Origin: Globomyces pollinis-pini
Lineage: Eukaryota > Chytridiomycota > Chytridiomycetes > Rhizophydiales > Globomycetaceae
Assembly (NCBI GenBank): GCA_025399215.1
Contig: MU621169.1
Location: forward strand, 1 to 64,000
Direction of reading: 5' to 3'
Length of the DNA stretch: 64,000 nucleotides
The notes under the pieces were generated by a model, which saw only the letters and a list, made by a program, of their open reading frames with translations, searched no databases and was not told where the DNA came from. Both the position numbers and the translations under genes were made by a program. Below are positions 3,701 to 55,912 of this stretch, piece by piece. Position 1 is the first letter of the stretch. Every line of letters starts with the position of its first letter.

Positions 3701-3931
3701 TTTGTTTTACCATATGAACTCAATGGATCGTCACCCAGCTCTCTTGTTCCGTGAGGAAATGGCCCCAGAGCCTTTTTGGTCAGTTCAGATAGATACCTAA
3801 GTCATTAAGCACGAATTAGGACTAAACCTCCCAATCCGTTGGAAACAGAGTTGCAGTGACCAATGAAGCTAATAGTATGGTGATCTACTGGTTAACCGAA
3901 ACTCCCAAACCAGTGAGTTTATGAGTAACAT
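745..3931 (-). CDS. Secreted S9-like prolyl oligopeptidase/alpha-beta hydrolase
   Basis: Multi-exon gene read leftward from ATG 3931. Exon 1 and exon 2 give a clean signal peptide (MLLINSLITILLASLVTA), followed by WEALGPFPHGTRELG and then GGFENLQYSE, matching fungal secreted S9-like hydrolases of about 900 aa. A beta-rich N-terminal half covers about 2640-3700. The catalytic half has an oxyanion-region LHGAGVD (about 2510-2560), the nucleophile elbow GHSNGG (about 2220-2240), a probable Asp loop in ARSGGDDDN (about 1905-1930) and the His in GKGHWY (about 1800-1815). The C-terminus is VADYLIVGNEYG followed by a Gly-rich tail. At least ten introns, most 25-34 nt, were placed by keeping the homologous frame. 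One is the double intron at 3772-3827. The protein probably acts in the secretory pathway or outside the cell; substrate unknown. Confidence 0.8.
3772..3827 (-). other. Back-to-back intron pair (31+25 nt) in the S9-like gene
   Basis: On the minus strand the exon ending PTDWE is followed by a complete GT..AG unit (3827-3797, 31 nt) and immediately by a second complete GT..AG unit (3796-3772, 25 nt), then the exon ALGPFPHG. Reading the second unit as exon gives a stop codon after three codons. Family conservation of the WE-x-LGPFP junction requires both units to be removed. Confidence 0.75.
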
Positions 3932-4167
3932 TGCCTGCAATGAATTAATTTTGATTCAACGATACTTAATTTCTAATCGAATTCTGTGACCTGGGAAACT
4001 GTATGTGATCATGACCTACAGCCCACAGATGGCAACGTTTTTCCGAGACATTAAATTTCAACAGTGATCATAAAGATTCAGTTCTAAATTATATTCAAAT
4101 TGAAATAGAATCATTAAAAATTAACTATATTGTACTGATTTAATAGATGAATGCCAAGTTTATTAAC

Positions 4168-4701
4168 TTATTCGTCATCTTCATCTTCTTCGTCTTCAGC
4201 GTTATCAATGTTATAATAACGTAATTCGTAAGAAGTTTTGCCGTTGGCAACAGCACGGAGCCATTCCTTAAGACCGTGTTTCTTCAAGAATTTCTTGGTC
4301 AAGTACTTGACGTAACGTTTGGCAAATGGAACATTTGGGGCAACAGTGACGGTGATGATGTTGGCAGCACGAGTGATGGCGACAGATTCGGTCAAGTTAC
4401 CGGTACGACCACCAACCTTGATGCGATCGTGAAGGAATTTTTCCTAGACATTAAATACAACAAATATTTTACGAAAGCAGCAATGTCGAAGATACCATCG
4501 GTAGCAGCTTTAGAAGCATCGAGGGTGAATTTGGAAGGAGTCTTCTTGGTAACCTAAAACAATGAGCTTCTTGTCCTACTCGTTGGCAGTTGAGCAAACG
4601 CATTTAAGCTACTCTTTTGTCCTGAGCAAAGTCAAGAGGCAACTTCAATGGATCGTGCTGCTGCATTAAAGTTCACTTACAGTTTTCTTGGTAACAGCCA
4701 T
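4168..4701 (-). CDS. RPL22: 60S ribosomal protein eL22
   Basis: Three exons. Exon 1 encodes MAVTKKT; exon 2 [25 protein letters not shown]; exon 3 [17 protein letters not shown] through the typical eL22 core ([34 protein letters not shown]) to an acidic tail EDEEDEDDE. This is a component of the large ribosomal subunit that contacts rRNA domain III. Total length about 125 residues, normal for the family. Intron 1 (4554-4680, 127 nt) is long for this genome and sits right after the start, as is common in fungal ribosomal protein genes. Intron 2 is a standard 29 nt. Codon use is noticeably richer in G/C-ending codons than its neighbours, consistent with high expression. Confidence 0.95.
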
Positions 4702-4966
4702 TTGGAAAAGTAAAGATTGATACGTAAAAAAAAAGAATTAAACTCAGCGTGGCGTGTGGCTTCCTCGGGGAATTTTCAGTTTAAGGGATTATTGTATTTA
4801 TCATTCAACACAGAATGGAATATACCCATTTGTATTAATGCGAAATAGAAATCAACACACTGATGGTGTTTTTATCCAGAAAAATAACTGTAAACCAAAT
4901 AAAAACCGTTATTGAATGGAAGGTATATTAAACTACGTTGCTTAATCACGTTAATAAAGTTGAACA

Positions 4967-6130
4967 TTAATTCCGATCACGCCGTCTATCATGAACATCA
5001 TCTCTGTCACGTCGTCTATCATATGAATCACTACCATATCGACTCTTCTGATAATCATCCTTTTTGCTATCTCTTTTGTAATAATCAGCATCATTGTCTT
5101 TTTTATCATAATTATCACTCAATTTATCCCTACAATTACGTTTAGTGATATTGTACCTTTGGCTTTTTCTCTTTTCTTCATGCTCATCATCACTGTGAGA
5201 TTTCACTCTCTTTCGATCACGAGATGTCCTGTTTAAGATTAGAAAATGAAAACCCACGTTTCTAAATCATCAGAGTACTTTCGATGCGACTTTGATTTCT
5301 CTTTTTTGGCTTTTTTCGATTTCTTCTCTTTTTTAGACTTTTTTCGTTTCTCGTCTGCTAAATAGGCGTGCATAGGATCATCATAATTTACTTCTTCTTG
5401 ATCGCTATCCGACTTCTTTGCGTCCGGATTTAAATGGACAGGTAAAATAGCCTATCAGGATTAATAATTTTCCTACTAAAATGAAAAGGGTGCGTGTATT
5501 CAAAAAGGTTGAATCTGATTATTACATTACGGCGCTCTTTCTCCCTTTGAAGAAATTCCTCTTCATCCTCCTTCTCACCCTTTTTGGGCCCTTTATATGA
5601 TAATACATGATCCACTCTAACAATTCGATTTAATATCTGGCAATAATAAGATCTAGTACAAAATACCTCCACTCTATTCATTAATCATCCAGATACACAG
5701 AATACCCATTAAAGTTATCTACACTAAGCACAGTAGAACGTTGATCCTCAAATCCTACCAAATTAGAAAGTAAATATACATACCAATAAAACAAAATCCT
5801 TTTGATTTTCCAGTTGCTTTATCTCTAACTAGATTGATGTCGATTACCTCCCCAAATCTGATTTAGAATTAAACTTCCTCTGATTCTTACTGGGAAAACA
5901 TACAAATAAGATCACCTTATCTTTAGATAAAACTTCATACCTTCGGTGAGATCAAAAGGCAATCCTCCAACGTAAATATACGCAGAATCCTGAAATTAAA
6001 TATCAGTTTATACCTTGAATTGGTCATGCCATGAAGCAACTCCTATCAATCCTTTATCCAGTTCTATCTGGTTCAGTCGTTGAATATCTCGAATGTTGCT
6101 ATGGTTCAGCTCCTTCAAAACTTACTTCAT
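4967..6130 (-). CDS. IST3: IST3/Snu17/RBMX2-like RRM protein (RES complex, spliceosome)
   Basis: The start is split by an intron: ATG-AA at 6130 joins, after a 27-nt intron, to NIRDIQRLNQIELDKG. One RRM follows: RNP2 in SAYIYVGGLPFDLTEGD, RNP1 in KATGKSKGFCFIGF, then EDQRSTVLSVDNFNG and IVRVDHVLSYKGPKK. This is diagnostic for RBMX2/Ist3, the RES complex subunit that contacts the U2 snRNP SF3b region and promotes first-step splicing of short or weak introns. The C-terminus is a long Lys/Glu, Arg/Asp and Ser-rich tail (about 4967-5400), as in metazoan RBMX2 and longer than in yeast. A 25-nt micro-exon (LICMFS) lies between a 25-nt and a 33-nt intron near 5880-5930. The gene is head-to-head with the next gene, with only 25 nt between the two ATGs. 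Confidence 0.9.
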
Positions 6131-6155
6131 TGTAACGAAAAAAGTTTTTAGAGGA

Positions 6156-8100
6156 ATGTTCAACATGGACTTCACTTCCAAATATATTCAAGGATTGGAA
6201 GAAAAGCTACAACTGTACAAGGATATAATGTTGGCGAATGATGAAAAGATCCACCAACTGAAGCAACGTTATTATCAGCAATTAGAACAATCAAATTTAT
6301 TGGAAGTTACCTCCCAATCACCTACATTAAATTTCAAAGAAGAAAATATGTCTCCAAAAATATCTACGTATTCGGTGCCGGGAGTTGCTAGTAGCCAAGA
6401 TCTTGGTATTGTCCAGAATGACGATTTTGAAATGGAATTATGGACAAATATGATGGAAGATACCAATCCCGGTTCGGTCAAACTATTAGGAAAGAAAAAA
6501 TATCTGTTGATTAAAGAAGCTATTCAACAATTCTTGATTGATCAGTTGGGTATAACCTTAGGAATTTCATTATTTAGGAACTCAAGCATCAAATTGTGTA
6601 AAGTTAGACCCAAGAACAGGTCAGTTAGAAGAATGTATACCAATTACTTTATTATCTTTATTTGATGAATGGTTTTCTGACAAGATATCGAGTGGACTCC
6701 TTTCGGACGATTATTCAGTATATTTGTCCCTATTAATATTAGCCTAATCCCAAGCAAAGTAATAGAAAGAGTACTTCAAGTGTTTCAAAAGCTGAAAACG
6801 CAACAGATTTAAAAATAACGGCATATTCAGTCTTGTTAAGACAATCATTCAAGAATTTTAGGACATCTACTATTCATCGAGATGCTACCGAACTATTTTT
6901 AATGGAAAACAATGAAGAAAGCAAATTGGTTAAGGGTTTTAGCAACCATTTGGTATTAGGGGTTCCAAATTATTTAGCAGACTCTTATTTGGATTACATG
7001 CAAACCAAATTCAACTTGAAACTTGTAGACTCAAATATCACAGTGGATGAAATATCTGGTAGCAATCAGCGATCAAAACGAAGTTCCAGAACTGAAAGTG
7101 AATTTGACTACAATCTAGATCAAATGGAAAAGTCCAATTCGACATCGAAAAGCTCTATATCCAAATCAAAAAGCACGAGTAGTAGTGAAATTGATTATGT
7201 ACCATCTAAGAAACGGGAAAAATCATCATCGACTTCGAGTGAACCCAAAAGCATAAAAGTGAGTGTTCAAAAACGACCAAAAAAAGCCAAAATTGAATAT
7301 AGTGATGATGAATTGGTGCCATGGATAGGTATATAAGATTAAAGGTAACAAAAATAGAAGTCGTACAAGAAACATATCCAGATTTCTATTCTATGTTTCC
7401 AAACTCTACTGAACTATTTTACAACAATTATCTAAAGCAAATGAACATCAAATCCAAGATACCAACAGGAATGATCCCTAAAACCACCCAAGAAGATTTT
7501 TTCCAGCAATTCAAAGTCGAGTTTGTAAAGGAAGATTGGACCTGGTTAACAAAAGAACAAAAAATCTCTACTACAACAATATCAGAACAAACTATTCCCA
7601 TTGAAAATTTAATGCATATACAACCCACCAAAAGTTTCTATGATATCTACCCGACAAAGTATTCGGAACTACAAGGACTAAAGAGTTCTTGCTGCATTGG
7701 GATGACTATGGATCTAATCGGATGGAGAAATATGGTGACCGAACTCGATCCTAATTTCTTCAAAACATATTCACATGTCATACAACGATACCTCCTTAAT
7801 GGGATTTTACAATTTCTCGAAACAGAACTCACTCCATTTGGTATACTATCACGAGTGGTTTTTGAATTGGATTCTTGTTTATTAGTATATATTCCATCGT
7901 TTTTGAAATCTCAATTTGGAAATTGGTTTCGATACCATTTGAACAATTTGTTTGTTAATTTTAAAATGGTGGAATTGAATTGGGTGATTTATTCAGATGA
8001 TGATGGGTTGGATGATGTGGATGAGGATGAAGATGAGTTGGAATCAGTAATAGATGATGATGATGATAATGGATTGGATGGATTTACATCGCATAGTTAA
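6156..8100 (+). CDS. Unknown protein, Ser/Lys-rich centre and acidic tail
   Basis: I do not recognise this family. Four exons, joined by 28-nt (6551-6578), 25-nt (6718-6742) and 29-nt (7328-7356) introns, give one continuous frame from MFNMDFTSKYIQGLEEKLQ to the stop at 8100, roughly 620 residues. A predicted coiled coil lies at the N-terminus (residues 5-45). A mostly globular segment follows, with GTQASNCVKLDPRTGQLEE and CIPITLLSLFDEWFSDK. Next are a Ser/Lys/Arg-rich linker (about 7070-7300; KRSSRTESE, SKSKSTSSS, KKREKSS), a second globular half beginning EVVQETYPDFYSMFPNS, and a tail of about 35 residues that is mostly Asp/Glu. The basic linker and acidic tail suggest a nuclear protein; no enzymatic motif is visible. 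An alternative start is the internal ATG at 6165. Confidence 0.65.
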
Positions 8101-8253
8101 TAATATATCTTTCGACGTTTCTCATTGTGCTTACTCTGTCGTTTAGTAATGTTTCCAATGTGGAAGATTGGTAAGAGTGAGACTCAAAAAAGTCATTGTT
8201 TAGTAAGCTAGTGTATCAAAGTATATTTAATAAGAAAAAGGAAATAAATCTTA

Positions 8254-10030: not shown

Positions 10031-13000
10031 ATGAACAATTGCTCTTCTGGTGTACTATGGGCCTCTCTCTCATCGCAATGTCCTCCTCACTTCTACTGTC
10101 CTCTGTCTAATAATTACTCTGAATTGTGTCAACCGGACCCTATTTGTCTAGCCTCTCGTTTGCAATCTACTCTCAATCCTTCACCATGTTCTCCTCAGTC
10201 TCCTCTGGAACCTATGTTATGTCCCAACTCTACTTACTGTCCTTCACCTAATGTCTCCATACCTTGTCCGGCTAATCACTTCTGTCCAGCTGGTTCTATT
10301 AACCCTGTTAAATGCTCTTTCTTCTCATACTGTCCTGCTTCTTCTCACTATGAACAATTTTATGGTGGTATTCTACTAATTGCTATAATTGACTCTCTCC
10401 TCTTGGTCTTGTACTTGTATTCAAAATACTCACTTCAAATCCATAAATACTTTAATGCCTTATTTATTAAACCTGTCACAACATCACGACACACTCCTAC
10501 AAATGAAGGAATGACGACAGATAAAAAATCGAATGATATCAATGATCGTTCATCCGATAATCAACAATCTCCATTACTAGAAAATCACGACAAAATTACC
10601 ATCACAGAAATGCCCCTAAAACGATCCCGTTCATATATACCAAAACCAATTAATATTATTAACGCATTTATCGAAAGCAGATTAAACTCTAACGCAACCA
10701 TTAAGATACAATTCTCCGACTTGTCTTTTGAATTACCTAATGGCCTGAAGATTCTTCAAGGTGTTTCTGGCGAGTTTCATCCAGGAAAATTTACAGCTAT
10801 AATGGGTCCCTCCGGTGCAGGAAGTAATTCTTTATTTTATTTAAATATTATAGGTAATCTCTCGTTCTTTAATATTAGAAACAACTTTTTTGAATGTTTT
10901 GCTGGGAAAAATTCAGGGAACATCAGGAAAAGTAATTATCAATGATTGTGAAGGATCTTTGGCTGATTTGAAAAAGGTACTTCAGCACGGGAATGTTTAT
11001 ATTATATTAGGTATTTAAATTCTTGGAATAACATGGCAGGTTGTCGGATTTGTGCCTCAACAAGACATCATGTTACCAGAATTAACTGTTCGAGAAAACA
11101 TTTATCATTCCTGTCGTACACGAGCACCCCGGGCTTGGTCTAACGAAAAAATAAACGACTACGTTGATAAATTGTTACATGTGTTAAGGTATTGTACATG
11201 AATTTAACTGTAGTCTATCGCATGTTGCTGATAGTCTGATTGGTAACCACGAAATGCGTGGCATTTCTGGTGGTCAACGGAAAAGGGTAAATGTAGGAAT
11301 GGAACTGGCGTCTTTGCCATTATCGTTGTTCTTAGATGAACCAACTTCCGGATTGGATGCTACTGCATCTTTGAATATTGTTAACTTATTGAAGAATTTG
11401 GCTGAATTGAATTTGACCACTGTTGCTGTTATTCATCAACCTCGTATAGAGATTTATGATCAATTAGACGATATTTTGTTATTGATTCCTGGTGGTCGCA
11501 CAGCCTATTTGGGACCAAAAGACTATATTGAAGAGTATTTTGGTAAATTTGGATATGAGGTATGGTGATATTTTAGCGTTAATATTAGTTTTGCCCTTCA
11601 AAAAATCCAGCAGATATTCTAATGGATATTGTCAGTCACAGAACCAAACCACGCGAAGGTTTTAGAAATTTATCTCCCTCAGACTTGGCGGAAAAGTGGG
11701 AAGCATTCAAAACAAATTCACAAACAAATGATGGACAACCACAACAACGTAAAATCTTTCGAGTCAAGACCAAGGAAACTGATGGTCCAGAGCATACTTT
11801 GACTTTAAAGACCCATTTGCCAAAAGATCAGGTGCGTGAGGACAATGAACGGCTGGCTCGAGCAACTTTTTCTTTATCAAGACAGAAGAGTTTGAACCGA
11901 CACAGATCTGTGAACGATGCTAAGGGTGCTACTGATGAAGCTCTAAACCTTCTTCATAATGATGAATCAAACAGACTGAAAAACGAGACAGAAACTGACC
12001 GCTTGAACTATCCACAATCCAACGAGTCAGACGCAAGTGACATAATTCAATTACAGAGCTTAACAAATGCCAATACTAATCTAAATAGAACTCTGTCGCG
12101 ATATACTAGAAAACCGACGAGTCTCGACAGACATTTCTTTAATAATGAACGCACACAAATCACACAACCCAAACGATTATTTTTGGACGCGATATCAGAT
12201 GCACAGTGTTCTGGTACACTCAATAGAGAAACTAAATTTAAATCATGGACACCTACATACGAACGACGTAAAAGTATGGTTGTGCTGCCCACCGTTAACA
12301 ACATATTTGACGTGGAAGTATCTTTAGCTAAACTCAAACAGTCAGAACCAGAACCATCAACAACACCTCGTGATCGAAGGAACAGTATTTTGGTTTTACC
12401 AATTGCAGATGGAATCTCATACAAAGATATTGGTCCAGTGATGTTAGACAACAGTCCAATCTGCATCAATCCGAACTTGGTAGTATATCCGATTCCGAAC
12501 GATGCCACATACGATGATATCATGGCCGAACTGGATGAAAATATTGAGGATGATATTAAAGATATGCAACATACCGATTTACTTGTTCAAGACCCAACTG
12601 TCGTATTGGCTGTGATGCAGAAAGATATTTCAAAAGTGACACGACGACAGTTGCTCGAATTGTGCGAGACTCGCCATGCAGGATTCCTAACGCAATTGTG
12701 GATTTGTACAGTAAGATCGTTCTTGCAACAGTATCGACAAGTGGATTCGTTTTGTTTAGAAATGTTCATCCCATCAGTATGTGGAATTTTACAAGGTATA
12801 TCTTTACAATATTTGGCTGGAAGTCCATATCGCGGTACGTTGGTGAAGCCCTTGGATATAATTTCGCCAGCTAGTATGGAAACAAGGCTTACCGAATCTA
12901 TCTTTGCCATTAGCATGGTTGTTTCTTTTGCTGCCGCACCAGCTTCCTGTAATGTGTTTGGTATGGAGAAACTAGTGTATTATCGTGAAGCTGCTTCGGG

Positions 13001-13551
13001 TCACCAATCATTGGCGTACTTTCTAGCAAAGACTTTAGCTGCTCTTCCTCGAATTGCCTTGGGTGCTTTGCATATGGTTGCCTTCTTCACTCCATTAATT
13101 GGGCCAAGAACTGCTTTTGGTACACTTTACATCATGATATTATTGCTCTTTTACTGCATCTTTGGCATTGGCTCCATAATTTCTATCATTCGTGATCGTG
13201 ATAATCAACACATTCTTGCTACGTTACTTGCCGTCATCCCCGCAGTCTACTGTGGTCATGGTATATGCAAACAAAAATTTAATTCTAGATCCATCTTTGA
13301 CTGATTCCTCACCTTTTACTCAGTTCCTTCTGGCCATTTCCTTCAATCGTTATTTTGGCGAACTCTACTATTCAAATGAAGTGGTTCCTTACCGAGGCAT
13401 CTATCAAGTAGATGATATATCGGCTAAACTAACCGGATTTGTCTTGGAGCGCCCATGGTTTGATTTGGGAATGATGTTTGTCATCGGAGGTGTATTACGA
13501 GTTATTGCCTATATTTGCCTGATCGGAGTGAATAGGGCTAAACAACGCTAA
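10031..13551 (+). CDS. ABCG half-transporter, ADP1/plant ABCG28-like (copy 1)
   Basis: About 1,106 residues from six exons. The N-terminal lumenal region is Cys-rich with CPxxFYCP-type repeats (residues about 10-110), as in plant ABCG24/28 and yeast Adp1. One transmembrane segment follows, then an ABCG nucleotide-binding domain: Walker A GPSGAGKTT split by a double intron, Q-loop VPQQD, signature ISGGQRKRV, Walker B LFLDEPTSGLDA and H-loop AVIHQPR. The membrane domain (about 12680-13540) has about six helices, ending FNRYFGELYY..GFVLERPWFD. Between them is an unusually long linker (about 11640-12640, roughly 330 residues), hydrophilic and Ser/Thr/Asn-rich, which copy 2 largely lacks. Substrate unknown; the family suggests export at the ER or plasma membrane as a dimer. 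Two of the five introns are back-to-back doubles. Confidence 0.9.
10824..10878 (+). other. Back-to-back intron pair (30+25 nt) inside the Walker A codon run of ABC copy 1
   Basis: GT..AG units at 10824-10853 and 10854-10878 abut with no exon between them. Removing both joins GPSGAG to KTTFLNVLAGK and restores Walker A. Removing only the first shifts the frame so that TTFLNVLAGK is lost. Confidence 0.8.
10977..11039 (+). other. Back-to-back intron pair (34+29 nt) in ABC copy 1
   Basis: Units at 10977-11010 and 11011-11039 abut as AG|GT. Both must go to join LADLKK to VVGFVPQQD (Q-loop). The equivalent intron in ABC copy 2 (about 16021-16055) is a single 35-nt unit. Confidence 0.78.
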
Positions 13552-13654
13552 TACTATTATTCCTCTCTAAAATAAATTGCATTTAAATTTGATATGCGGT
13601 TTTGAGTTTCAATTATAAATAACTTCCTCATTTATAATGGAGCACATCAGTTTA

Positions 13655-14425
13655 TTAAAATGAACGACCAGCTCCACCTGAAGCGTCAAGATTAGAACCA
13701 GTGACCCAGCTGCCAGAACATGGCACTGCAAGGTAAGCAACTGTTTCAGCAATATCCTCTGGAGTCCCCAATCTCTTGAACAAAGAGGCATCTATACCAA
13801 TATTGGCAAGCACATCACCACCCGATGAAAGCATGTCACTCTCGGTGAATCCTGGGGACACTGCATTGACACGAATCCCTCTTGGCGCCAATTCACTTGC
13901 TAATGCTCGTGTAAGACCGTCGATGGCTGCCTTGGACATGGTGTACACCGATATATCAGGCCTGCCTTCTTTTGATACAATAGATGAGATGTTGATGATT
14001 GCACCGCCATTGGTAAGTTTTGGCACAGCAGCACGAGTAATGAAGAAAGTTCCATTTACATTCACACCCATAGTTTTATGGTATTGAGAATCAGTTTCCA
14101 AATGAATAGGAGATCCCAAGTATACACCAGCATTATTAACGAGAACATCTAAACGGCCAAAGGTTTTGAAAGTTTCGTCAACAATACGGTTTGCATCTTC
14201 AACCTTTGATACATCACCCTTGATTGCAATTGCTTTGACACCCATCAATTCAATTTCAGAGATAACCTTGAGTGCTGCCTCCTCATTCGCGTTATAATTG
14301 ATTGCAATGTTGGCACCTAAAGATGCCAACTTAAGGGCAATACCACGCCCAATACCACGCGAACCACCCGTCACTAGGGCTACATTTTGATTAAGATCTT
14401 TAGGAAGGCGAGAATAGAAAGTCAT
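13655..14425 (-). CDS. Short-chain dehydrogenase/reductase (FabG-like, classical SDR)
   Basis: Intronless, 256 residues. Rossmann cofactor motif TGGSRGIG at residues 19-26, NNAG at 97-100, catalytic Ser at 147/148 and YTMSK with Tyr161/Lys165. All four classical SDR elements are intact. The region after the glycine motif has NYNANEEAA, with no acidic residue at the end of beta-2, which favours NADP(H). It resembles 3-oxoacyl-ACP reductase-like or glucose/sorbitol-type SDRs common in bacteria and in dikaryotic fungi; substrate cannot be assigned. It lies between, and antisense to, the two ABCG paralogs. Absence of introns and a somewhat higher GC content than its neighbours raise the possibility of horizontal acquisition, but this is only suggestive. 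Confidence 0.9.
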   Translation of the reverse strand: MTFYSRLPKDLNQNVALVTGGSRGIGRGIALKLASLGANIAINYNANEEAALKVISEIELMGVKAIAIKGDVSKVEDANRIVDETFKTFGRLDVLVNNAGVYLGSPIHLETDSQYHKTMGVNVNGTFFITRAAVPKLTNGGAIINISSIVSKEGRPDISVYTMSKAAIDGLTRALASELAPRGIRVNAVSPGFTESDMLSSGGDVLANIGIDASLFKRLGTPEDIAETVAYLAVPCSGSWVTGSNLDASGGAGRSF

Positions 14426-15243
14426 TTTTGTTTGGTACTTTCATTCAATACCATACTATTTAAGCTAATTGCGGAAAAATTTAAATGATCTGAAAGTGTA
14501 CTTTTAGCCGTTACTCCTCTCATTCGTATTTAGAATATTCTGGAATGTACTGGAGAATTAGTTTATAATTGCAAATTGTCGAGGGGCGATTTTTAGGCGA
14601 AGTGGTGCAACTTAGATTTTTTTGTACAACCCTCAGACAATCCTGTGCACTTCCACTAAGGATTATGACACAATGCTATTGCTGCAAATCTACAGTGGTA
14701 GATATGATATCACTATATATAATCAATTCTCGCAACACGGAATTTGTTGTTCTTTTAATATGCCCTTTGACAAGATATGCTGTTAATTTTGACTAGAAAT
14801 TCAGCACATTCTTACATTTTAATTGCTATCGACCTTTCCTATAATGACTTGAAGGATAAATCTAGATCTAATTCGTCAGATAAATTTCCTAAAAATCACT
14901 GTCCAAAATTACTGCCAATCTTTGGAAAAGATCTAAAATCATTTGGATGGCTGCCTGTTTATTGTGTTGATGACATGTTTGCAGTGGGAGCCAGCAACAA
15001 TACAACGCGACACTATCGCCAAGGCCACACTTTGATCCTGATATCTAAGAAAACATTTATGCTACATAAAGTACATGAATTATTTATTCAATCGTAAAGT
15101 GGCAGATCGATACACAGAGTGATGGATGGATGTCAATTGAAAATGGTTAAGCCACCACAGTACTTAACTCGTCATTTTCAACTATTAAAATAATTCATAA
15201 ACTAATTGTTGATTATTGACCCAAAGAATTGATATTGAAGCGA
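14426..15243. other. Intergenic region between SDR and ABC copy 2
   Basis: About 820 nt without a convincing gene. Two overlapping plus-strand ORFs (75 and 106 codons) have no recognisable domain and no homology-supported introns. I regard them as chance ORFs. The region should contain the SDR promoter (left side) and the ABC copy 2 promoter (right side). Confidence 0.4.
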
Positions 15244-17858
15244 ATGAATTCAACAACTTGTCTATCGAACATTGTATTTCAACAATTTGATACTCCTTGT
15301 CCCCTTCGTTTTTATTGTCCTAACCAGAATACAAATCAGGTTATAAATCAAATATGTGCTCCTACTATTGATTGTTACAGAGACCGTTTAGCTAAAAAAA
15401 TATGCACATCCCAAGGACAATTGGAAGGAATTCCTTGTCCAGAGGGAAACTACTGTCCCAACACAACTTCTTTAATCACATGTCCTCAAGGATATTACTG
15501 TCCTATTGGAACTATATCCCCAATTCAATGTAGTTTTCTTTCCGATTGTCCAATTGGTTCTCACAAAGAAATATTTTATGGTGGAATCTTCTTCTTCATC
15601 CTCATTGACTTCTGTTTGATAATCATCTTTTCTTTCACCCATTCAACAACCTTAAATGTCAAAAAAACAACTTCAAAGTATAGCTTGTTGCAATATTTTC
15701 AAAGTCATGACGATTATACATTAAAGAGCAACCTGAAAATTTCATTTCAAGAACTTGGACTTACATTGCCAAATGGAAAGGTTATTTTGCAGGGTGTTAC
15801 AGGGGAATTTTATCCAGGAAAGTTCACAGGAATAATGGGCCCTTCAGGAGCTGGAAGTAATCGTAGATTTATATTAATTGCTTTTTAGGTACTTGAAATT
15901 TTAGTAAATTGATATTTTCTAGAGACAACCTTTTTAAATGTATTGCTAGATAGAGTATATCATAGCTCTGGTAGAGTGTTTTTAAATGGAGTTGAAGGTA
16001 GATTATCGCAATACAGAAAGGTAGATAGATATTGCTAAATTTTTATGACAATTAGCTATTGGGATTTGTACCTCAAGAAGATATTATGCTTCCTGAATTA
16101 ACCGTTCGAGAAAATATTTATCACTCTTGTCGGATGCGCTCACAAAACAATTGGAATTCAGACCAGGTGTCCAATTACGTGGATGTCATTTTAAAGAGTC
16201 TAGAGTATTAATGTTGTGGTCATTTAATTTCATTTAGTTTATGGGATGTTCAGAATAGCATTATAGGCGATGAAGAAGATAGGGGTGTATCTGGTGGGCA
16301 GAAGAAACGTGTTAATATTGGAATGGAATTGGCAGGGTTACCGTTAGCTCTCTTTTTAGACGAACCAACATCTGGGCTTGATGCAACTGGTATGTTCAAT
16401 TGTATGTATGATTTTATACTAGCTGCTTTGAATATTGCAACGATGTTGAAACAAATAGCAAGCTTGAATTTAACAACTGTGGCGGTAATTCATCAACCAA
16501 GAGTAGAAATTTACAATCAAATGGATGACATATTGCTCTTGATTCCTGGAGGTAGAACTGCTTATCATGGCCCGAAAGCGCATATTGAAGAATATTTCAT
16601 TAAACTAGGATACGAGGTAATAAGAGACATATTTATTCTTTAGGTATTCACTCACTACTTATCACCAGTTTGCGGATAGGAAAAACCCAGCAGATTTACT
16701 AATGGATATTGTGAGTGGAGAAGTGGATACGAGAGACGGTTATATAAACCACAGTGCTTCAGATTTGGCAACTTATTGGGAAGAGTTTAAATTCAAAAGT
16801 AGATCTGAACTTGCAGTAGGGATTAGTTCCATGTCGAGACGTATCTTCAGGATTGATGCGACGAACTCTGCTGATGGGCACTCTGCTACAAATTCTGATG
16901 ATCCTAATGGATCGCTTTTAGAATCTGATTCAAATGTGATTGATAGTTCTATTTTGTCACAACTTGCAGCAAATAAGACCGCCAATGGTTTTGTACAATT
17001 CTACTACTGTTTGACTAGATCCTTCACACAGCAATGGAGGAAACTGACCAATTTAATAACTGAAATAATTGTTTCAATTATATGTGGTGCTATTGTAGGT
17101 TCAACGACGGCTTCTAAATCTGGTCGGTTGTATAGTGGAGTTTTTGTCCAACCTTTTGAATTAATATCCCCTTCGTCGAAGGAACGCGATCCTGTTGTTG
17201 CCTATTTTTATATTGGTCTTCTTGTTTGTATTGCATGTGCGTCTTCAGGTTGTAATGTCTTTGGTACAGAGTTAGGCATATTTGAAAGAGAGACGAACGC
17301 AGGACATAATCGCACTGCATACTTTTTAGCTAAAACTATATCTGTGATACCTAGAATTCTCATGTCATCTTTACACTTTACAGGCGTATGGTATGCGCTG
17401 GTGAACCCGCGTATTTCCTTCTTAAATATGTATTGCATGATATTCTTCAACTATTATTGCGTATGGGGAATATCTGCAGTTGTATCCGTGATGGCAAGGC
17501 AGCGAAGTCATGCAATTTTAGCAACAACAATTTCAGTCTTACCAGCTTTATATTGTGGTTCATGTAATTATATTCCAAAGTCTAACATCATGTAGCTCCA
17601 TTGTTGAGTGAAGATTCCTCGGTCAATAGAGCAATTTTAAATCTCTCTTTCAATCGTTATGCTGCAGAATTTTTCTATTCACTTGAATTGGACAATTATA
17701 AGGATGTTTATCAAATTGATACAGTATCAGCAAAATACTCTGGGTATACGTTAAACAGGCCATACTTTGATCTTCTAGTTATGTTTGGATTTGGTACTTT
17801 CCTAAGAATACTATCATACTTTGCATTGATATTCTGCAATCGTGGTAAGCATTTATAG
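15244..17858 (+). CDS. ABCG half-transporter, ADP1/plant ABCG28-like (copy 2)
   Basis: Paralog of the gene at 10031, with the same order: a Cys-rich lumenal region (CPLRFYCP, CPEGNYCP, CPQGYYCP), one TM helix, and an NBD with GPSGAGKTT (split by a double intron), VPQED, VSGGQKKRV, LFLDEPTSGLDA and VIHQPR. The ABC2 membrane domain ends FNRYAAEFFYS..GYTLNRPYFD. About 790 residues; the NBD-TMD linker is short (about 16730-16990), so copy 1 is longer mainly because of its linker. The ATG at 15244 (MNSTTCLSN) aligns with copy 1's MNNCSSG start. Intron positions are largely shared with copy 1. Copy 2 has an extra intron in the Walker B-to-H-loop stretch (about 16391-16423) and a doubled intron at 16617-16668 where copy 1 has a single one. 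Same-strand neighbours point to tandem duplication. Confidence 0.9.
15857..15922 (+). other. Back-to-back intron pair (32+34 nt) in Walker A of ABC copy 2
   Basis: Same position and phase as the double intron of ABC copy 1. Units at 15857-15888 and 15889-15922 abut. Both must be removed to join GPSGAG to KTTFLNV. Reading unit 2 as exon gives an immediate stop. Confidence 0.8.
16617..16668 (+). other. Back-to-back intron pair (27+25 nt) in ABC copy 2; single in copy 1
   Basis: Units at 16617-16643 and 16644-16668 abut. Removing both joins KLGYE to FADRKNPADLLMDIV. Copy 1 has one 29-nt intron at exactly this place (KFGYE | FCPSKNPADILMDIV). Confidence 0.78.
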
Positions 17859-33131: not shown

Positions 33132-33533
33132 TTTTTAAAGTTTTAGTTGTTTATTGATAATAATAAATTTGATAATTTTGAATTTTTGATTAATAATTTT
33201 TGATTATTTAAATTTAGATTATTGATTAGATTCTATTAGAGAATTAGTATTTTATTGAGATTACTTTTTTACTTTTATTTTTATTTTTAATTAAAGATAA
33301 TAAATGTTTTTTGTTGATTTGAATTTCATTTGAAGATAATAAATTTAATTTTAATTCTTTAATAATTTCTTGTATTTCGTTCATTTTTTACTTACTAGTT
33401 AGGGTTATTTATAAATTAGTAACTAGGGTTACTACTTTTTAGTTAGGGTTACTTTTGAGTTAGGGTTACTTTTTAGTTAGGGTTGAGTGACTTCATTTGG
33501 GCTTGGGTTCTTCCACCCCCCTCTTTTTACCAA
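33132..33533. other. Very AT-rich divergent upstream region (DUF1769 / Pif1-like gene)
   Basis: The left 250 nt is extremely AT-rich and low in complexity. The right 135 nt carries the telomere-like motif cluster described separately, then a short pyrimidine-rich run just before ATG 33534. A minus-strand ORF of about 45 codons near 33250-33386 could not be joined to DUF1769 in frame, so I do not call it. Confidence 0.45.
33399..33485 (+). promoter_or_regulatory. Cluster of five TAGGGTTA (telobox-like) motifs
   Basis: Copies of TAGGGTT(A/G) at 33400, 33424, 33444, 33461 and 33478, all in the same orientation with 17-24 nt spacing. Several are extended to TTAGGGTTACTTT. The cluster ends 48 nt before the ATG of the Pif1-like gene. 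The same extended motif precedes the proteasome alpha-4 gene. Confidence 0.6.
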
Positions 33534-42236: not shown

Positions 42237-43241
42237 ATGAGTTGGTAATTCAACAAACACTGACCAATAGGAATGGATTTGTGAAAGCTGTTAGTAGAGC
42301 TACAACAACTGTTATGCAGCAAGCTGGGGCTGTTGAGAAAACTGTATTTTGTTTGTTCTTAATCATCTAGATTGATAAAGATTATGAAGAGGAAGAAGCT
42401 AAATTTCGATTGTTTGTTTATTGATAGTATCTTAGTTGATTCTTAGGTGAGTGCTAGACGTTTTATTTATTTCTTAGGTAATAAATCGATCAGTCTAAAA
42501 TTTAAGGTTAGAAACAAGGATTGAAAACTTACACAATCAAGCAAAAGGTTATTTGGATGCTGTTCGACAAATGACAAGTGCTCAAAAGAGTATTGCAGAT
42601 ACGATTGACCAGTTTTACGACGATAATGCACCTTTATCTAAAGCTGCTCGATCTTATAAAGATGCTATGATTCAAATGGATGAATATTTAAGACTCGACC
42701 TTGTAGAAACAATATATACTCATCATTTTAGGACAACACTTACCGACTTGCAGTGATGGAACCAATTGGCAGAATGGTATTCAAGGTCATTAATATGTAT
42801 GTAGGTCGGAGTACTGCCTTTTGTAAATGAAGTTATAAAGAAAAGAAAGTTGAAATTGTTGGATTATGATCGAACACGTACAACCGTGAAAAAATTGATT
42901 GATAAACCGTCTGAAGATCCTTCAAAATTAGCAAAAGTATGTTGAATCAAATGTTAAGTATTTCATAGGCCGAAGCAGATTGTACACACGCAAGAAATCA
43001 GTATGAACCATTAAATCAACAACTGGTTACAGAAATCCCTCAGCTTATAGATATGCAAATTCCTTACTTGAATCCGTCGTTCGAAGCATTAGTAAAATCA
43101 CAATTAGCTTTCAATGAAGGGGCATTTCATAAGTTAGATGCCATCAAAAAATCATTCCCTAGTAATTCGGATGTAGGATTGGAAGGAAGAGTAGAAGGTG
43201 TATTGCAACAAATGCGCGAGCTATCTATATGTAAATCTTAG
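42237..43241 (+). CDS. HOB3: BAR-domain protein Hob3/Rvs161
   Basis: The start codon exon holds only ATG-AGT-TG; after a 26-nt intron it continues NGFVKAVSRATTTVMQQAG, matching the MSWKGFKKA start of Hob3. BAR-domain signatures follow: VEKTIDKDYEEEEAKFR, NLHNQAKGYLDAVRQMTSAQ, SIADTIDQFY, VGVLPFVNEVIKKRKLKLLDYDR, KLIDKPSEDPSKLAKAE and PYLNPSFEALVKSQL, ending MRELSICKS. There is no SH3 domain, so this is the Rvs161/amphiphysin-BAR-only type. It bends membrane at endocytic sites and helps actin and polarity in fungi. About 250 residues, normal length. One intron is a triple back-to-back array (42412-42506). Confidence 0.92.
42412..42506 (+). other. Triple back-to-back intron array (35+31+29 nt) in HOB3
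   Basis: Three complete GT..AG units abut at 42412-42446, 42447-42477 and 42478-42506. Removing the whole block joins EEEAKFR with LLETRIENLHNQ, as required by the Hob3 family. Partial removal leaves stops or frame shifts. Confidence 0.75.
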
Positions 43242-44910: not shown

Positions 44911-45031
44911 TTGTATGATTGGTGTGTAATGTAATAAACTTCAGTTCAATGTATCTCATACCGACCATTTGGACTAACAAACTTGCAATGAGTTAAGAAA
45001 ACATAATTGACATTTTATTTCCAAAAATGAA

Positions 45032-47065: not shown

Positions 47066-49324
47066 TTAAGGACTAAATGGAATTTGATATAAAGATTGTC
47101 GGTGGTTTCTTCGCCGGTTATGAACTTCCGTTTTGGTCATAGTTAACTCTAACTGCTTAGCTTTTATCAAAGGATTCATTGAGAGCAAATCTGCATAGTT
47201 CACCACCTTCTTGGGTCCGGTAGACCGCGATTGTATAGGCGGTTTCAAGAAGTGAAATCTATCAGAGGGTTTAACGAAACAATCTGATAGATTTTGAATT
47301 TTGACGTCTATCGTTTGCTTGTACTTTTTGGCACTACCAACGGCACTCAATGATGTTGGGGTTGGGCTGATACACCCAGCATCTTGATGCAATTGGTACG
47401 CATAATCTGCCCTTTTCAAAGTTAGGATATGAGTCATTGACAAGTTCGCTTGGAAGTTGGCCAATTTATTCTGGGTGGTTGATACTTTTGCTGAAATATG
47501 GTTAGTTTTTTGTTGCTGTTTAGCCTTCCACTGTGTTAATCTTCTTGATTTTGAAATTTCTTCTTGGATTTTAGTTTCTAAGAATGCTTTTCTTATCTTG
47601 GTAGAATTAGTTTCGGTTGAGAATTGTGAAGTTTCCTCCATAAGATATGTATATTTGCTGAGCAATGATGGATCATCTGGTGGAAAAACTCTATCATAGT
47701 TTCCTAGTCTTGAATTTTCCCATTCTTCAAATTTTTTTAGTATAGCTGGATTATACTTTCGGTAGTATCTTTCTAACGACTTCTTTTGAAGCTCTAGCCG
47801 CTTTTCTGATGTCTTACTATTACAATTGGTTGCATTTTCCTCCGCTTCATTGGATAGCAAATCAGTTTGTGAATTATTTAGAGTTATCTCACTACTTCCT
47901 ATGTCATTAAGGGCACCTTTTGAGCTAATTGTGTCTTGCGTTGGAGTTCCCTTTGATTTTAATGAACCTCCTTTCTGAGATTTCAACAAACGATTTAAGC
48001 TATAAGATAAAAATCTATACTATTTAATACCTTTTTGCCTTTTGGTCTCTCAAGTAACGTTTTGGTGAACTTGAGTTTAGACTAAGAAGGTTAAGCGCAT
48101 CTTTGATAACACCGGATTTAATCTCTTTGTCCAATAACGCGTCACAAGTGAATGATGGTGAGTGATTGACTTCTAATACCCAAGGTTTAAGTTTTGAATC
48201 CAATAGTATATCAAACCCTAAGATTTCAAAACATTGAGACCCAAAATGGTTAAAGGAAGACTTTTGATCTGTTGGAAACCACGGTTTGACAAGTCTGCTT
48301 AATGCTGGTTGTACTATGAGGATAGTCTTAACAACAACATCTTGAATTTTTTTCCAAATTGTGTCCTTGTCTATCCCATTTTTGGATTCTAGTTCATCGA
48401 GTACTGCCTGAATAGTTCTTTTACTACCTTTCTCGTCATCTCTGATAAAATCTTTCGAATTTTTGTTTATCGCATAGTTTGTTAAATGCATGCAAATTTG
48501 ATCTAAATTACGCTTTGAAGGGACTTGGTAAGGTTCTGTAGCGAATCTAGCCAGCCCATCTTTATACACAAATACGCGAAGTGGATTCATAGATGTTACT
48601 AACACATAAACTCTAAAATCGAATTTGTAACCATCAATCAAGCATGGTGAAGAGATGTAGCTTTGAACTACCATATCAATATTTTCCAAATTGTTTAATT
48701 CGCTTGGATCTTTGAACAGAAATATTCCTTTCCCTTGTGATCCATGATCTGGTTTACTGATAAAACACTGCCCTTTCTTTGGTTTAAAAGAACTTTTAAA
48801 ATCTGCCAAGTCTCCAGGCAATATCCAACTGAGGATTAATTGCTCGTTTAATTACGATTTTGGGAAAAAATTATAGTCTTTGGGGAACTTCCGAGATAGT
48901 AGCGACACTTTGCGCGCCAGATGATCTTTTCTACATATTTCCTAGTTCATCGTAAATAAATCTAGTTTAGTTACATGCATTCCAGGAAAATGATTAATTT
49001 TTTGAAATGATTTCCTAATGTTGAGTTGAAAAGGTAACTCCATACCTAAAACATTAATATTGGACTATTGAATTACATATCTAATATTCTTTCTAATGAT
49101 ACTCCTGTGTCTATCCAAAACAATGCCCAGTCAGAGTTATCATCAACTATTTGATAATTAGACTCTTTCGCGACACTTTTCAAAATATCGTATTTACAAT
49201 TAGATAAATTAATATTAATTGATTTAGATTTAGATGAGGACTTTTCTTTTGCTAGCATGTGAAGCAATTGGTTGTTAAGATTAATCGTGTAAGGAAAATA
49301 CAATGCTTTGAGTGACATCATCAT
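47066..49324 (-). CDS. TTLL6/13-type tubulin polyglutamylase
   Basis: About 700 residues. The core reads KINHFPGMHELCRKDHLARKV, FPKDYNFFPKSWILPGDLADF, CFISKPDHGSQGKGIFLFKD, VVQSYISSPCLIDGYKFDFRVYVLVTS, LRVFVYKDGLARFATEPY, CMHLTNYAINK, FEILGFDILLDSKLKPWVLEVNHSPSF. The ATP-grasp residues (K in ISKPDHGSQGKG, R in DFRVYVL, E/N in LEVNHSPSF) are intact. The HFPGM, HLTNYAINK and EVNHSPS forms place it with TTLL4/6/13-like polyglutamylases rather than with glycylases or tubulin-tyrosine ligase. It modifies axonemal or centriolar microtubules, implying flagella. The C-terminal third (about 47066-47990) is Lys/Ser/Gln-rich and unlike anything I know. An intron after ILDM is a 31+31 nt double. The start codon is 105 nt from that of UFD2, divergent. 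Confidence 0.9.
49015..49076 (-). other. Back-to-back intron pair (31+31 nt) in the TTLL gene
   Basis: On the minus strand, unit 1 (49076-49046) and unit 2 (49045-49015) are each 31 nt with GT..AG ends and abut. Removing both joins RILDM to KSFQKINHFPGM, matching the family pattern (E/D)MKxxQKINHFPGM. Retaining unit 2 gives an in-frame stop. Confidence 0.8.
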
Positions 49325-49429
49325 TTAAAAACTAGTTAATCTCTATGGTAATTAAATAAAGGGTTGAACCTTTGAAAGTAGTCAGAATTGAAGTATATCA
49401 TTTGTTCAGTACCATTTTTCTTCCTCAAA

Positions 49430-52400: not shown

Positions 52401-53225
52401 GAATGAAACCGTCCATATGTTAAGTTACCTCACTGGTAATCCTGAGATAGTTGGACCGTTTATGGCCAATGAAATTGTTGATAGATTGGCAGCGATGTTG
52501 GACTTTAACTTGGTAGCTTTAGCTGGACCTCGATGCACAGAATTGAAGGTAATATCAATTTTAGGAAATGATAATTGATAATTAGGTTAAAAATCCCGAA
52601 AAATATCGCTTTGATCCTCGAAAATTGCTCAGCGAACTTGTTGATATTTTTATTCACCTTTCCCATCGAAGTGAATTTGTTGCAGCTGTAGCTCGAGATG
52701 AGAGATCGTTTGATAAAGCAGTTTTTCAACGTGCTGCATCGATTTTGAATAAGCACAGTTTGAAATCTCCCGTAAATGTTTTTCTACTAACTATGACAGG
52801 ATGAACTTAGTCAATTGATTGCGTTTGTTGGGCATGTAGAAGTAGCAGTACGGGAGAATGTCATGGAAGAAGAAGAGTTGGGTGATATTCCCGATGAATT
52901 TTTAGGTATTATTGTCGTCTTTAATCTTTTTAGATCCGTTACTATTTACATTAATGGAGGATCCAGTCACCTTACCGAGCGGTGTCAACATTGACTTATC
53001 AACGCTTCGCTCTCATTTACTTTCGGACCAACATGATCCAGTATGTGAATAACTTTCTTATTTTAGTTCAATCGACAACCATTAAAACTGGAAGACGCGA
53101 TTCCAAGTAACCCAATTACTTTTGTCATCTAACGCAAAATAGATGTAGAATTGAAAAAGAAAATTGTAGAATGGAAGGAATTGAAACGTAAAAACAAACA
53201 AGGCACAGCGATGGATTTGAGTTAA
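49430..53225 (+). CDS. UFD2: Ubiquitin elongation factor E4 (Ufd2/UBE4)
   Basis: The start [11 protein letters not shown] joins across a 30-nt intron to [17 protein letters not shown], the usual N-terminal E4 motif (EKIRxKRLA). A long helical Ufd2 core follows with conserved [54 protein letters not shown], and ending in a U-box: [60 protein letters not shown]. About 1,050 residues in some 20 exons, nearly all introns 26-47 nt. Ufd2 extends ubiquitin chains on substrates bound by Cdc48/p97 for proteasomal degradation. One exon of 33 nt ([11 protein letters not shown]) lies between two short introns near 50310-50342. Confidence 0.93.
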
Positions 53226-53375
53226 TGGTTTCAATAAAATTTTTGTCGCATATTCTTATTCATTATCCATTTATTTAAAACGAATAGTTATTATTTTTTG
53301 GAATATAGGTAGTTCAGTCAGATGTTTTGCGTAAATAACAAAAAGTAGACGCGACTGTTCAACTTCTTTAAATAA

Positions 53376-54655
53376 ATGCTGTCGTCTAGTAAAAAGTCAC
53401 CACAACCTACCAAAGTCACCAACAACTTCTTTGATGAAGCGATGGAATTATCCGAATCTGACGAAGATCAAGAATTGGATACAAATTATAGTCAACAATT
53501 ATTAGGTTTGAAGAAATATGTTAATAAAAGATATCAATCGAGGAGACTCTCCACCCAGTGCCAAACTATCTATATCTGAAGATGGATATGAAGAAGATGT
53601 GATTGTAATTTTTAAATCAGTTAATTTCAATACAGGAAAAGGAAATAACCAAAAATCGTTTGAATACAACCCGACAACCTATAAATAATGAACCAGAAAA
53701 ATCCATTGCAAGAGATTTAAAAATCAATCATCAATTTAATGGTCAAGATGAAGATGAAGAAGTTGAAGAATCGTTAGTGATCAAATTTTTTAAGCTTTTT
53801 TTAGGCAATTTCATACTACTAAAGATGTTGAAGATGATTTGAAACAGTTAATGGAATATATTCTACAATACAGTCCTCAAGATCACGAATTGAATCCTGA
53901 ATTAAGGCCATTCATTCCTGATTTTATTCCCTGTATAGGTGATATAGATGCCTTTATCAAGGTTTGATGGAATCTTTTGATCTTTTTAATGATTGAATAG
54001 ATTCCTAAAATAGACAATGATACAGATTTGATTGGATTAGCAATCCTGGATGAACCTGCAGCAAGTCAATCGGATCCTTCAGGTAAACTATGCATATACA
54101 TTGATATAAAGTACTTGATTTGCATTTACGTGCATTAAGTAAAGCTACAACTGTATTACCAACAGTTGTTCGTAGTTTGGATTCAACCCTGTTATCAAAA
54201 GATGCTAAACCGATTGATGGTTGGATTCATAGTATTCGTGAATTACACAACAAAAAACCATTACCCAGTGTGAATTACTCTCATTCGATGCCTGATATTG
54301 AACATTTGATGCAGGTTAAGATGGTGTGACTTATTTTTTAGGTTTGGCCTCCAGAAATAGAGACAGCATTGGAACAAAACGAGGTTTACAATAGTATAAA
54401 ATTCATTCGTTTTAGGAAGACATATTACCGAAACCAGAAATGGAATTGCCGTTAACAAAGTACATTGAGTTACTCTCTATTCTACTTGATATTCCTATTT
54501 TTAATGGTGGAAAGGATAAATTAGCTACAAAAAAGAGTAATTCATTGATTGAATCCATTCATGTGATTTTTACTCTTTACTCTGAATTTAAAAACTCGGA
54601 TCATTTCAAGGCGATGGATAGAAGTAATACTAGACCAGTGAATACTATCCAATAA
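53376..54655 (+). CDS. IFT46: Intraflagellar transport protein IFT46
   Basis: A disordered acidic N-terminus (FFDEAMELSESDEDQELD), then the IFT46 core: HTTKDVEDDLKQLMEYILQYSPQ, LNPELRPFIPDFIPCIGDIDAFIKIPK, LIGLAILDEPAASQSDPSVLDLHLRALSK, KPIDGWIHSIRELHNKKPLPSVNYSHSMPDIEHLM, PEMELPLTKYIELLSILLDIPI and IESIHVIFTLYSEFKNSDHFKAM. The order and motif spacing match IFT46, a core IFT-B subunit that carries outer-arm dynein cargo into flagella. About 330 residues in eight or nine exons, introns 25-40 nt. Its presence, with the TTLL enzyme about 4 kb away, shows flagellar machinery is retained. Confidence 0.93.
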
Positions 54656-54739
54656 AGATATAATAGTGTAAAATGTTATTCAAAGCATAAGAAGAATTCA
54701 AGTAGGAATCAATACTTTATTACAATCGAATTCAGTCTT

Positions 54740-55057
54740 CTATAATCCTCCACGTAATGCAAGAACTAAATGAAGAACAGTACCACCTTGAATTCCGTAT
54801 TCATTTGCAGTTTTATCATCTGCCATTTGCTTTCCCCCTACAATCAACCTGAAATAAGCATGAGTTGAAATACCGTTGTTGAGATGGAGGAATTCCTTCT
54901 TTCTCTTCCACTTTTTCTTTGATTCTGGAAACAAGATCGTTTGGTTCAATGTCGATCTCAACCTTTGACTATTAATACATCTTCTATAATACCTCTTTCC
55001 CTGTAAGTGTCTTACTATTAACTAATTCAAATTGTATACCTTAACTTTTATAATCAT
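54740..55057 (-). CDS. NEDD8: NEDD8/Rub1 ubiquitin-like modifier precursor
   Basis: Four tiny exons: MIIKVK | TLTGKE | [30 protein letters not shown] | [35 protein letters not shown]. Introns are 25-30 nt. The residue before the RLIVGGKQM strand, the DDKTA loop and the terminal LALRGG are NEDD8-specific (ubiquitin has LRLRGG: Ala in place of Arg72 distinguishes NEDD8). The mature C-terminus is the GG pair; a single trailing Leu must be trimmed by a UCH/DEN1-type protease. NEDD8 activates cullin-RING ligases. 77 residues before processing. Divergent from the ALKBH8-like gene with 95 nt between start codons. Confidence 0.93.
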
Positions 55058-55152
55058 TGAATTTGAATGGGGAAAATTTTCACTCTTTCAATCAATTCCA
55101 ACACCAATTCATTGAGAATACTTGAATTGAAGAGGAAAATAAGGAAAATTAT

Positions 55153-55912
55153 ATGACAACAGAAGATGTTTACGAAGGAATTAGTATTGCCAATCATTAT
55201 CCTAATGATTTGAAGTCTATCGGATTGCATGTCATTCCCAATTTTATATCCAACCAAGAAGAACATGATTTAATGGAGTTTTTAGATTCGCAAAAGTGGA
55301 ATGGACTTGGAATTGCACCTAACCCAGAATTGAAACGTCGAACTCAACAATATGGCTATTTATTTTCATATAGATACAGACAAATCCAGTCTGATCAAAC
55401 TCAATTACCAGAACCATTTCTTCCACTTCTTTCCAAATTCAATGCACACAAGTATTACTTACAGAATCAATATAACCATTTGGTGATCAATGAATACGAA
55501 AAGAATCAAGGGTATATCAAATAATCAATAATGGAATAGAATCATGCCACATATAGATGCACCAAAGATATTTGGTGATACTATTGCATCACTATCCATG
55601 CTTTCAGATTGTGTTATGACTTTTACTGAAAAACAAGATGAGTCAATAGAGTATAAAGTTCATTTGCCACGATATTCTGTAATAGTAATGACAGGTATTA
55701 ATGCAAAATGTATTGATTTGTAGGTATTTCATATAGTGACTCATTGTAAAGGATATTGCAGATATAAGTTAAAACATTCCATATCAAAAAACGATCAAGA
55801 TAAAATAGATGATTTGATAATTGATCGTAGCAGAAGAGTGTCAATAACGTTTCGACAGGTTTTGCCTTTAGAGACGAAAAACAGTTCATCAAATATTGAT
55901 AGTATGGAGTGA
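55153..55912 (+). CDS. ALKBH8-like AlkB 2-oxoglutarate/Fe(II) dioxygenase
   Basis: Three exons, about 224 residues: LKSIGLHVIPNFISNQEEHDLMEFLDSQKWNG, RRTQQYGYLFSYRYRQI, NHLVINEYEKNQGIMPHIDAPKIFGDTIASLSMLSDCVMTF, LPRYSVIVMTGYCRYKLKHSISKN and RSRRVSITFRQV. The HxD metal pair (PHIDAP), distal His (LKHSI) and 2OG-binding Arg pair (RRVSITFR) are intact. Best match in style is the AlkB domain of ALKBH8, which hydroxylates wobble mcm5U in tRNA. The RRM and methyltransferase domains of animal ALKBH8 are missing. The last intron is a 29+28 nt double; removing both units is needed to join MTG to YCRYKLKH. Confidence 0.83.
55695..55751 (+). other. Back-to-back intron pair (29+28 nt) in the AlkB gene
   Basis: Units at 55695-55723 and 55724-55751 abut as AG|GT. 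Both must be removed to reach the catalytic His exon YCRYKLKHSI; keeping unit 2 gives a stop after six residues. Confidence 0.8.

Follow-up and report, generated by a model that had tools for sequence, protein, structure and literature searches.

Is an intron that can be divided at an internal AG|GT into complete smaller introns one intron or several? This question is raised by a stretch of 64,000 nucleotides (nt) from Globomyces pollinis-pini (GenBank assembly GCA_025399215.1, contig MU621169.1, positions 1 to 64,000; hereafter the window), in which an initial annotation had marked eight such intron blocks. The source organism, Globomyces sp. JEL0801, is a chytrid of the order Rhizophydiales whose assembly comprises 18.5 Mb in 459 contigs. 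Our analysis of the genome sequence supports the view that complete introns adjoining across zero-length exons recur genome-wide. We read the blocks, 52–124 nt long, as tandem micro-intron arrays, in which each unit is a complete intron and is probably removed singly, in any order. As frame and homology show, an array holds two to four complete spliceosomal introns, each of about 24–36 nt, which stand head to tail with AG|GT junctions and no coding base between them.

Intron blocks of the window

Ordinary introns were described with a self-trained gene finder, which was trained on the window and 20 stretches of 10 kb and then retrained with eight more (344 kb in total). Among the 439 introns called, 358 were 23–40 nt long, most of all introns being about 28 nt, with GTA(A/T) as donor and TAG as acceptor. 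A YTAAY motif was found in 123 of 253 introns and, where present, mostly lay 10–17 nt from the 3′ end. The U2 small nuclear RNA of the genome has a GUAGUA stretch, which we take to be the branch-point partner. Beside the 23–40-nt majority, a second size class was observed, consisting of longer single introns without AG|GT, of 79 nt (L016:7286-7364, minus strand) and 81 nt (window 58424-58504).

All eight blocks are present in the window at the coordinates and with the unit lengths first given (Table 1), every unit starting with GT and ending with AG. Blocks 3772-3827 and 49015-49076 are on the minus strand, the remaining six on the plus strand. Protein homology had been said to demand removal of the whole block, and this is borne out at each of the eight loci. 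Once the four ABC transporter blocks are taken out, the Walker A GPSGAGKTTFLN is intact and ABC_tran is matched at 98 and 94 bits; blocks 15857-15922 and 16617-16668 are likewise spliced out in full in the public gene model HDV02_004891. In the S9-like peptidase gene, removal of 3772-3827 gives WE|ALGPFPHGTREL in frame, the LGPF motif being found in 32 of the 50 homologues inspected. Removal of 42412-42506 restores the BAR domain of the Hob3-like gene (148 bits). With 49015-49076 removed, the alignment of the TTLL gene to TTLL6 is ungapped around the junction; a Pfam search with a shorter TTLL fragment gave no match. For the AlkB-like gene, the 2OG-FeII_Oxy_2 Pfam match rises from 24 bits with the first exon to 80 bits once the block and an ordinary 28-nt intron are spliced out. 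The expectation that partial or no removal leads to stops held at the two loci tried, for five of five choices in the Hob3-like gene and three of three in the AlkB-like gene.

The units adjoin rather than nest, as first described: at all nine junctions of the window, AG|GT combines a complete acceptor with a complete donor. The inner acceptors of these junctions are TAG in nine of nine cases (p = 0.0003) and the inner donors GTA in eight of nine (p = 0.0002). When zero-length exons were allowed, the gene finder, unaided, resolved each of the four ABC transporter blocks into adjoining introns.

Comparison with chance expectation

With any exon length from zero allowed, 455 introns were called in the 344 kb, with 16 zero-length exons as against 12 exons of 1–30 nt taken together. 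The 16 make up 13 blocks (11 doubles, one triple and one quadruple), and four of them are common to the nine zero-length junctions of the window. Shuffling the interiors of 76 long spans lowered the zero-length exons to 1.16 on average, with no more than 3 in any of 25 runs, and exons of 1–30 nt stayed at 15. A model-free gap test, with 19 cases at gap zero against a mean of 8.7, carries little weight, one control motif having also given 19 (mean 11.4).

Introns of 46–76 nt could be divided at AG|GT into units of 20–45 nt in 14 of 40 cases, compared with a mean of 2.8 and a maximum of 9 in 300 dinucleotide shuffles; among high-margin calls the count was 7 of 13. At 77–130 nt, one of 33 introns was divisible, which does not differ significantly from the shuffle mean of 0.17. 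To say that most introns of 50–100 nt are tandem was therefore too strong. The chance rate of an internal AG|GT, first put at about one in seven, comes down to about one in 14 with the shuffled 46–76-nt introns. Among the control tetramers counted in the 40 introns, GGTA (14) and TAGG (12) owe their high counts to overlap with AGGT; the other seven gave 0–3.

Genome-wide, the pattern TAACN{3,9}AGGTAN{10,24}TAAC has 130 matches, as against 45 with one base inserted at the junction, 38 with three bases inserted and 55 with AGGTA scrambled to GAGTA. The spacing pattern AGGTAN{18,30}TAGGTA has 733 matches, compared with 149 at N{38,50}, a count that includes rows matched across two units, and 104 at N{90,102}. 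The lack of a genome-wide excess of AG|GT at unit spacing, named beforehand as an outcome that would refute the idea, is not what these counts show. By arithmetic estimate, ordinary introns standing before an exon that begins with GTA may supply about 70 of the 733 matches. Scaling roughly from 12 zero-length junctions in the 280 kb outside the window, the genome would hold about 800 of them, a figure that becomes somewhat lower after chance calls and is perhaps higher since the gene finder caught four of the nine window junctions.

Rows of three and four units in other genes

The first 100 of the 130 TAAC-motif matches listed contained six runs of adjoining matches, and all six loci (L031-L036) were analysed. 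They were read by frame, the 800-nt stretches being too short for the gene finder (no gene in five of the six). At all six loci, removal of the row leaves one open frame. Four units are found in L031, L032, L033 and L036, two in L035 (rather than three, the last acceptor having been picked to fit the frame) and three in L034, together with a separate unit and a 1-nt exon. In L032, an Ssu72 gene, SFGTGSA|VRLPGPS is read across 29+33+34+26 nt and aligns ungapped at the junction. L036 reads as a RasGAP (34.8 bits).

The gene finder called nine blocks outside the window, three of which were covered by the homology test. Two of these are in the gamma-tubulin gene of L016, which has a four-unit row and a doublet and aligns ungapped over 183 residues with a tubulin gamma-1 chain. 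The third is a triple in the kynurenine aminotransferase gene of L027, where TGWK|IGW is read with an ungapped junction. The block in L021 is in a gene that we take to be kinase-like, and the two in L025 are presumably in an IFT88-like gene.

The best sequence argument that the units are recognised singly comes from L034 (C119:18801-19600, minus strand), an AHA1 homologue. NVNNWHW is read if a 31-nt intron is followed by a 1-nt exon, A, and by three adjoining introns of 28+24+26 nt, and the resulting product aligns ungapped there. A single intron spanning the locus between its outermost donor and acceptor would drop the A and break the frame. Judged from this alignment, the 1-nt exon is required by the protein.

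Changes in unit number and origin of the units

The two ABC transporter genes of the window are paralogues, with 383 of 778 aligned residues identical and 95 of 138 fourfold sites different, so that synonymous sites are saturated. They are co-directional (window 10031-17858), and a gene that we assume to be short-chain-dehydrogenase-like lies between them on the opposite strand. Five intron positions are common to both copies: the one at Walker A is double in both, two are double in one copy and single in the other, and two are single in both. Since the copies differ at two of the five positions, the number of units does change.

Duplication of introns in place had been put forward as one source of the blocks. 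A row of six putative units of 27–29 nt at C12:42083-42255 contains two identical neighbours (28 nt). In the motif-selected set, units resemble their neighbours more than they resemble units of other arrays (p = 0.0009). These two observations speak for the proposal, which is not clear for most doublets: the likeness of adjacent units gave p = 0.07 in the set made of the gene-finder and initially annotated blocks, and p = 0.19 in the spacing chains taken without the C12:42083 array. Of the 733 spacing matches, the first 100 listed include 15 chains of adjoining units. Motif selection had biased a similarity test on the pooled units (p = 0.0002), which was replaced by the split-set test given here. 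As indicated for at least one array, duplication in place likely occurs. Within about 9 kb at C12:39221-48388, a possible hot spot, four such runs are found together with one more match, the six-unit row with its identical neighbours being among them.

The main rival to in-place duplication is insertion at existing AG|GT sites. The units would then be no duplicates; new introns would have been inserted at existing AG|GT junctions (proto-splice sites), as introners or as reverse-spliced introns. Any intron offers a suitable target for such an insertion at its AG|GT junction, and the finding that adjacent units are mostly not more similar than expected by chance (p = 0.07; p = 0.19 without the C12 array) fits with it. 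The two identical neighbours in the C12 row and the likeness of adjacent units in the motif-selected arrays speak against it, and the one array that was searched against the genome matched itself alone, in a search that skips very common words. We regard insertion as possible, though rather doubtful.

With a confidence just short of even, we tentatively propose that intron positions behave here like microsatellites of whole introns. Units would be born by in-place duplication at AG|GT, would be singly spliceable, and would drift in copy number with the messenger RNA (mRNA) unchanged. Such a process could build rows of at least four units without burden on the coding sequence, and rare slips could give rise to 1-nt exons.

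Unit signals and mode of removal

The units of the blocks are complete introns, each having a donor (mostly GTA) and an acceptor (mostly TAG) of its own. About two thirds of them also carry a branch-point-like motif at the usual distance. This motif is found in 291 of 426 single introns as compared to 685 of 2130 shuffled ones. It is present in 11 of the 16 non-last units of the gene-finder set and, among the units of the spacing search, in 62 of the first 100 listed. In the window blocks, a set that has four blocks in common with the gene-finder set, it is found in six of nine non-last and four of eight last units.

The spliceosome would pair the nearest sites and excise each unit as an ordinary intron. 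Once one unit is gone, the next donor or the previous acceptor would abut the exon. Because the junction is AG|GT, removal of any unit would leave a valid neighbour, and the order would therefore be irrelevant. The mRNA would be identical whatever the order, and also if the outermost sites were used at once. Since the number of units would be invisible in the mRNA, units could duplicate, be lost and diverge almost freely. Stepwise removal appears favoured by the complete signals of the units and by the AHA1 1-nt exon.

Alternatively, the arrays may be real and each block be excised in one step, using the outermost donor with the last branch point and acceptor, the inner sites being unused relics. 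By sequence, removal between the outermost sites gives the same frame in the blocks, AHA1 being the exception, so that one-step removal would yield the same mRNA at every other block. Longer single introns are also tolerated. The 79-nt intron, located at DLEGS|DTDTRRR of a Cse1 homologue, in a conserved stretch with an ungapped junction, contains no AG|GT and shows that longer introns can be spliced; most doublets are within the length that the spliceosome can handle. In contrast, the inner sites stay at consensus, and the four-unit rows keep signals in every unit. The 1-nt exon of AHA1 needs at least one unit to be handled alone, and the saturated ABC paralogues are both still double at Walker A, although re-gain or chance is possible there. 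Overall, one-step removal seems improbable to us. The same 79-nt intron goes against obligatory stepwise removal of longer introns by a spliceosome tuned to about 30 nt, a tuning that is not needed to account for the data.

Besides the like outcome of one-step removal, the spliceability of longer introns and the unclear likeness of most neighbouring units, several results weigh against arrays of singly removed introns. The branch-point-like motif is present in just seven of the 13 last units of the gene-finder set. The gene finder missed four of the eight window blocks (S9-like, Hob3-like, TTLL and AlkB-like), and its blocks in L002, L014 and L029 are putative calls. In the genome-wide searches, the reversed TAAC patterns gave 476, 269, 366 and 224 matches for the motif, the one-base insertion, the three-base insertion and the scrambled form, exceeding the forward totals of 130, 45, 38 and 55. 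The reversed spacing pattern, with 646 matches, nearly equals the forward count of 733 and is flat over the three spacings (646, 601 and 591). This control was not taken as a yardstick because reversed words have a different base make-up.

Chance, by which single introns of 50–100 nt would merely happen to hold AG|GT, may explain individual cases, about one in 14 introns of 46–76 nt being divisible on shuffling and the excess at 77–130 nt (1 of 33) not being significant, but as a general explanation it is rejected by the shuffles, the exon-length counts and the motif and spacing counts as well as by the three- and four-unit rows in conserved genes, and we consider it extremely improbable.

Relation to known intron arrangements

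Recursive (ratchet) splicing, which is typical of very long introns, involves zero-nucleotide exons in long Drosophila introns. As in that system, an acceptor here directly abuts a donor, and removal of the first part would recreate a donor at the exon. Unlike in recursive splicing, every part is by itself a whole intron, about 28 nt long, with up to four in a row, and the blocks, here known from sequence, measure 52–124 nt as compared to many kilobases. Introners are new introns that arise as copies of existing sequence and spread to many positions. Here, new introns would likewise arise as sequence copies; in contrast to introners, the copies observed are neighbours, and the one array searched matched itself alone (very common words being skipped).

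The stwintrons of fungi are described, in the passages of the reports cited, as complex intervening sequences made of two small spliceosomal introns and removed by successive reactions (PMC12403724, PMC7138796, PMC5639578, PMC9024468). According to these passages, stwintrons are nested, the inner intron breaking into a splice element of the outer one, be it donor, acceptor or branch point, and their order of removal is fixed; one-step removal of a [D1,2] stwintron leaves an extra G (PMC12403724). The arrays resemble stwintrons in combining small spliceosomal introns in a fungus. They differ in that the units abut with no element interrupted (complete sites at nine of nine window junctions). 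Furthermore, the order of removal, or removal in one step, would leave the mRNA unchanged, two reactions not being obligatory (AHA1 excepted).

In Cryptococcus, intron gain by DNA repeat expansion has multiplied introns in a repetitive region of one gene, as outlined in the part of the report considered here (PMC2395259). On that outline, both cases would involve an existing intron copied locally by a repeat-duplicating process; the difference is that here units pile up at single intron positions, and at many loci. Single-nucleotide exons have been reported, in the passages cited, in Arabidopsis (PMC4674806) and Fusarium (PMC12940212). From its alignment, AHA1 would likewise need a 1-nt exon, one that, unlike these, lies next to a row of introns joined by zero-length exons. 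The literature searched, which leaves out most subscription journals, gave no description of spliceosomal micro-introns abutting in rows. On this partial literature, we view the arrays as a variant within complex or recursive introns, with rows of abutting micro-introns apparently being new.

Other features of the window

An Rfam search of the window gave no match, and ARAGORN found no tRNA in it. A perfect tandem repeat of 36 bp in three copies lies between genes at 56935-57042. A 17-bp repeat containing TTAGGG (consensus TACTTTTTAGTTAGGGT, 3.1 copies) is located at 33433-33484, upstream of a gene that we assume to be helicase-like.

Table 1. Tandem introns, single introns at matching positions and one further gene in the window
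Position	Strand	Feature	Basis
3772..3827	-	tandem micro-intron, 31+25 nt, S9-like peptidase gene (WE|ALGPF)	frame and homologue motif
10824..10853	+	unit 1, 30 nt, Walker A block, ABC transporter copy 1	gene finder, Pfam
10854..10878	+	unit 2, 25 nt, Walker A block, ABC transporter copy 1	gene finder, Pfam
10977..11010	+	unit 1, 34 nt, second block, ABC transporter copy 1 (single in copy 2)	
11011..11039	+	unit 2, 29 nt, second block, ABC transporter copy 1	
11560..11588	+	single intron, 29 nt, ABC transporter copy 1, at position double in copy 2	
15857..15888	+	unit 1, 32 nt, Walker A block, ABC transporter copy 2	gene finder, Pfam, HDV02_004891
15889..15922	+	unit 2, 34 nt, Walker A block, ABC transporter copy 2	gene finder, Pfam, HDV02_004891
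16021..16055	+	single intron, 35 nt, ABC transporter copy 2, at position double in copy 1	
16617..16643	+	unit 1, 27 nt, second block, ABC transporter copy 2	gene finder, HDV02_004891
16644..16668	+	unit 2, 25 nt, second block, ABC transporter copy 2	gene finder, HDV02_004891
42412..42506	+	tandem micro-intron, three units, 35+31+29 nt, Hob3-like BAR gene	hand check; missed by gene finder
49015..49076	-	tandem micro-intron, 31+31 nt, TTLL gene	hand check; missed by gene finder
55695..55751	+	tandem micro-intron, 29+28 nt, AlkB-like gene	hand check; missed by gene finder
59593-61515		ferric-reductase-like open reading frame	100% identical to public model HDV02_004911

Gene models and biological meaning

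Tandem blocks may truncate public gene models. HDV02_004891 begins at MGPSGAGK, just before the Walker A block 15857-15922, and HDV02_004885 starts downstream of the S9 block 3772-3827. Gene finders commonly do not allow zero-length exons. Taken together with the starts of these two models, this suggests that abutting micro-introns may be overlooked in other compact genomes.

If the reading proposed here is true, the arrays would provide a compact natural test of whether a single AG|GT is able to act as both acceptor and donor with about 28 nt on each side, of nearest-site pairing when introns abut, and of whether local duplication multiplies introns. Genes of this chytrid could then gain introns without any change of the protein.

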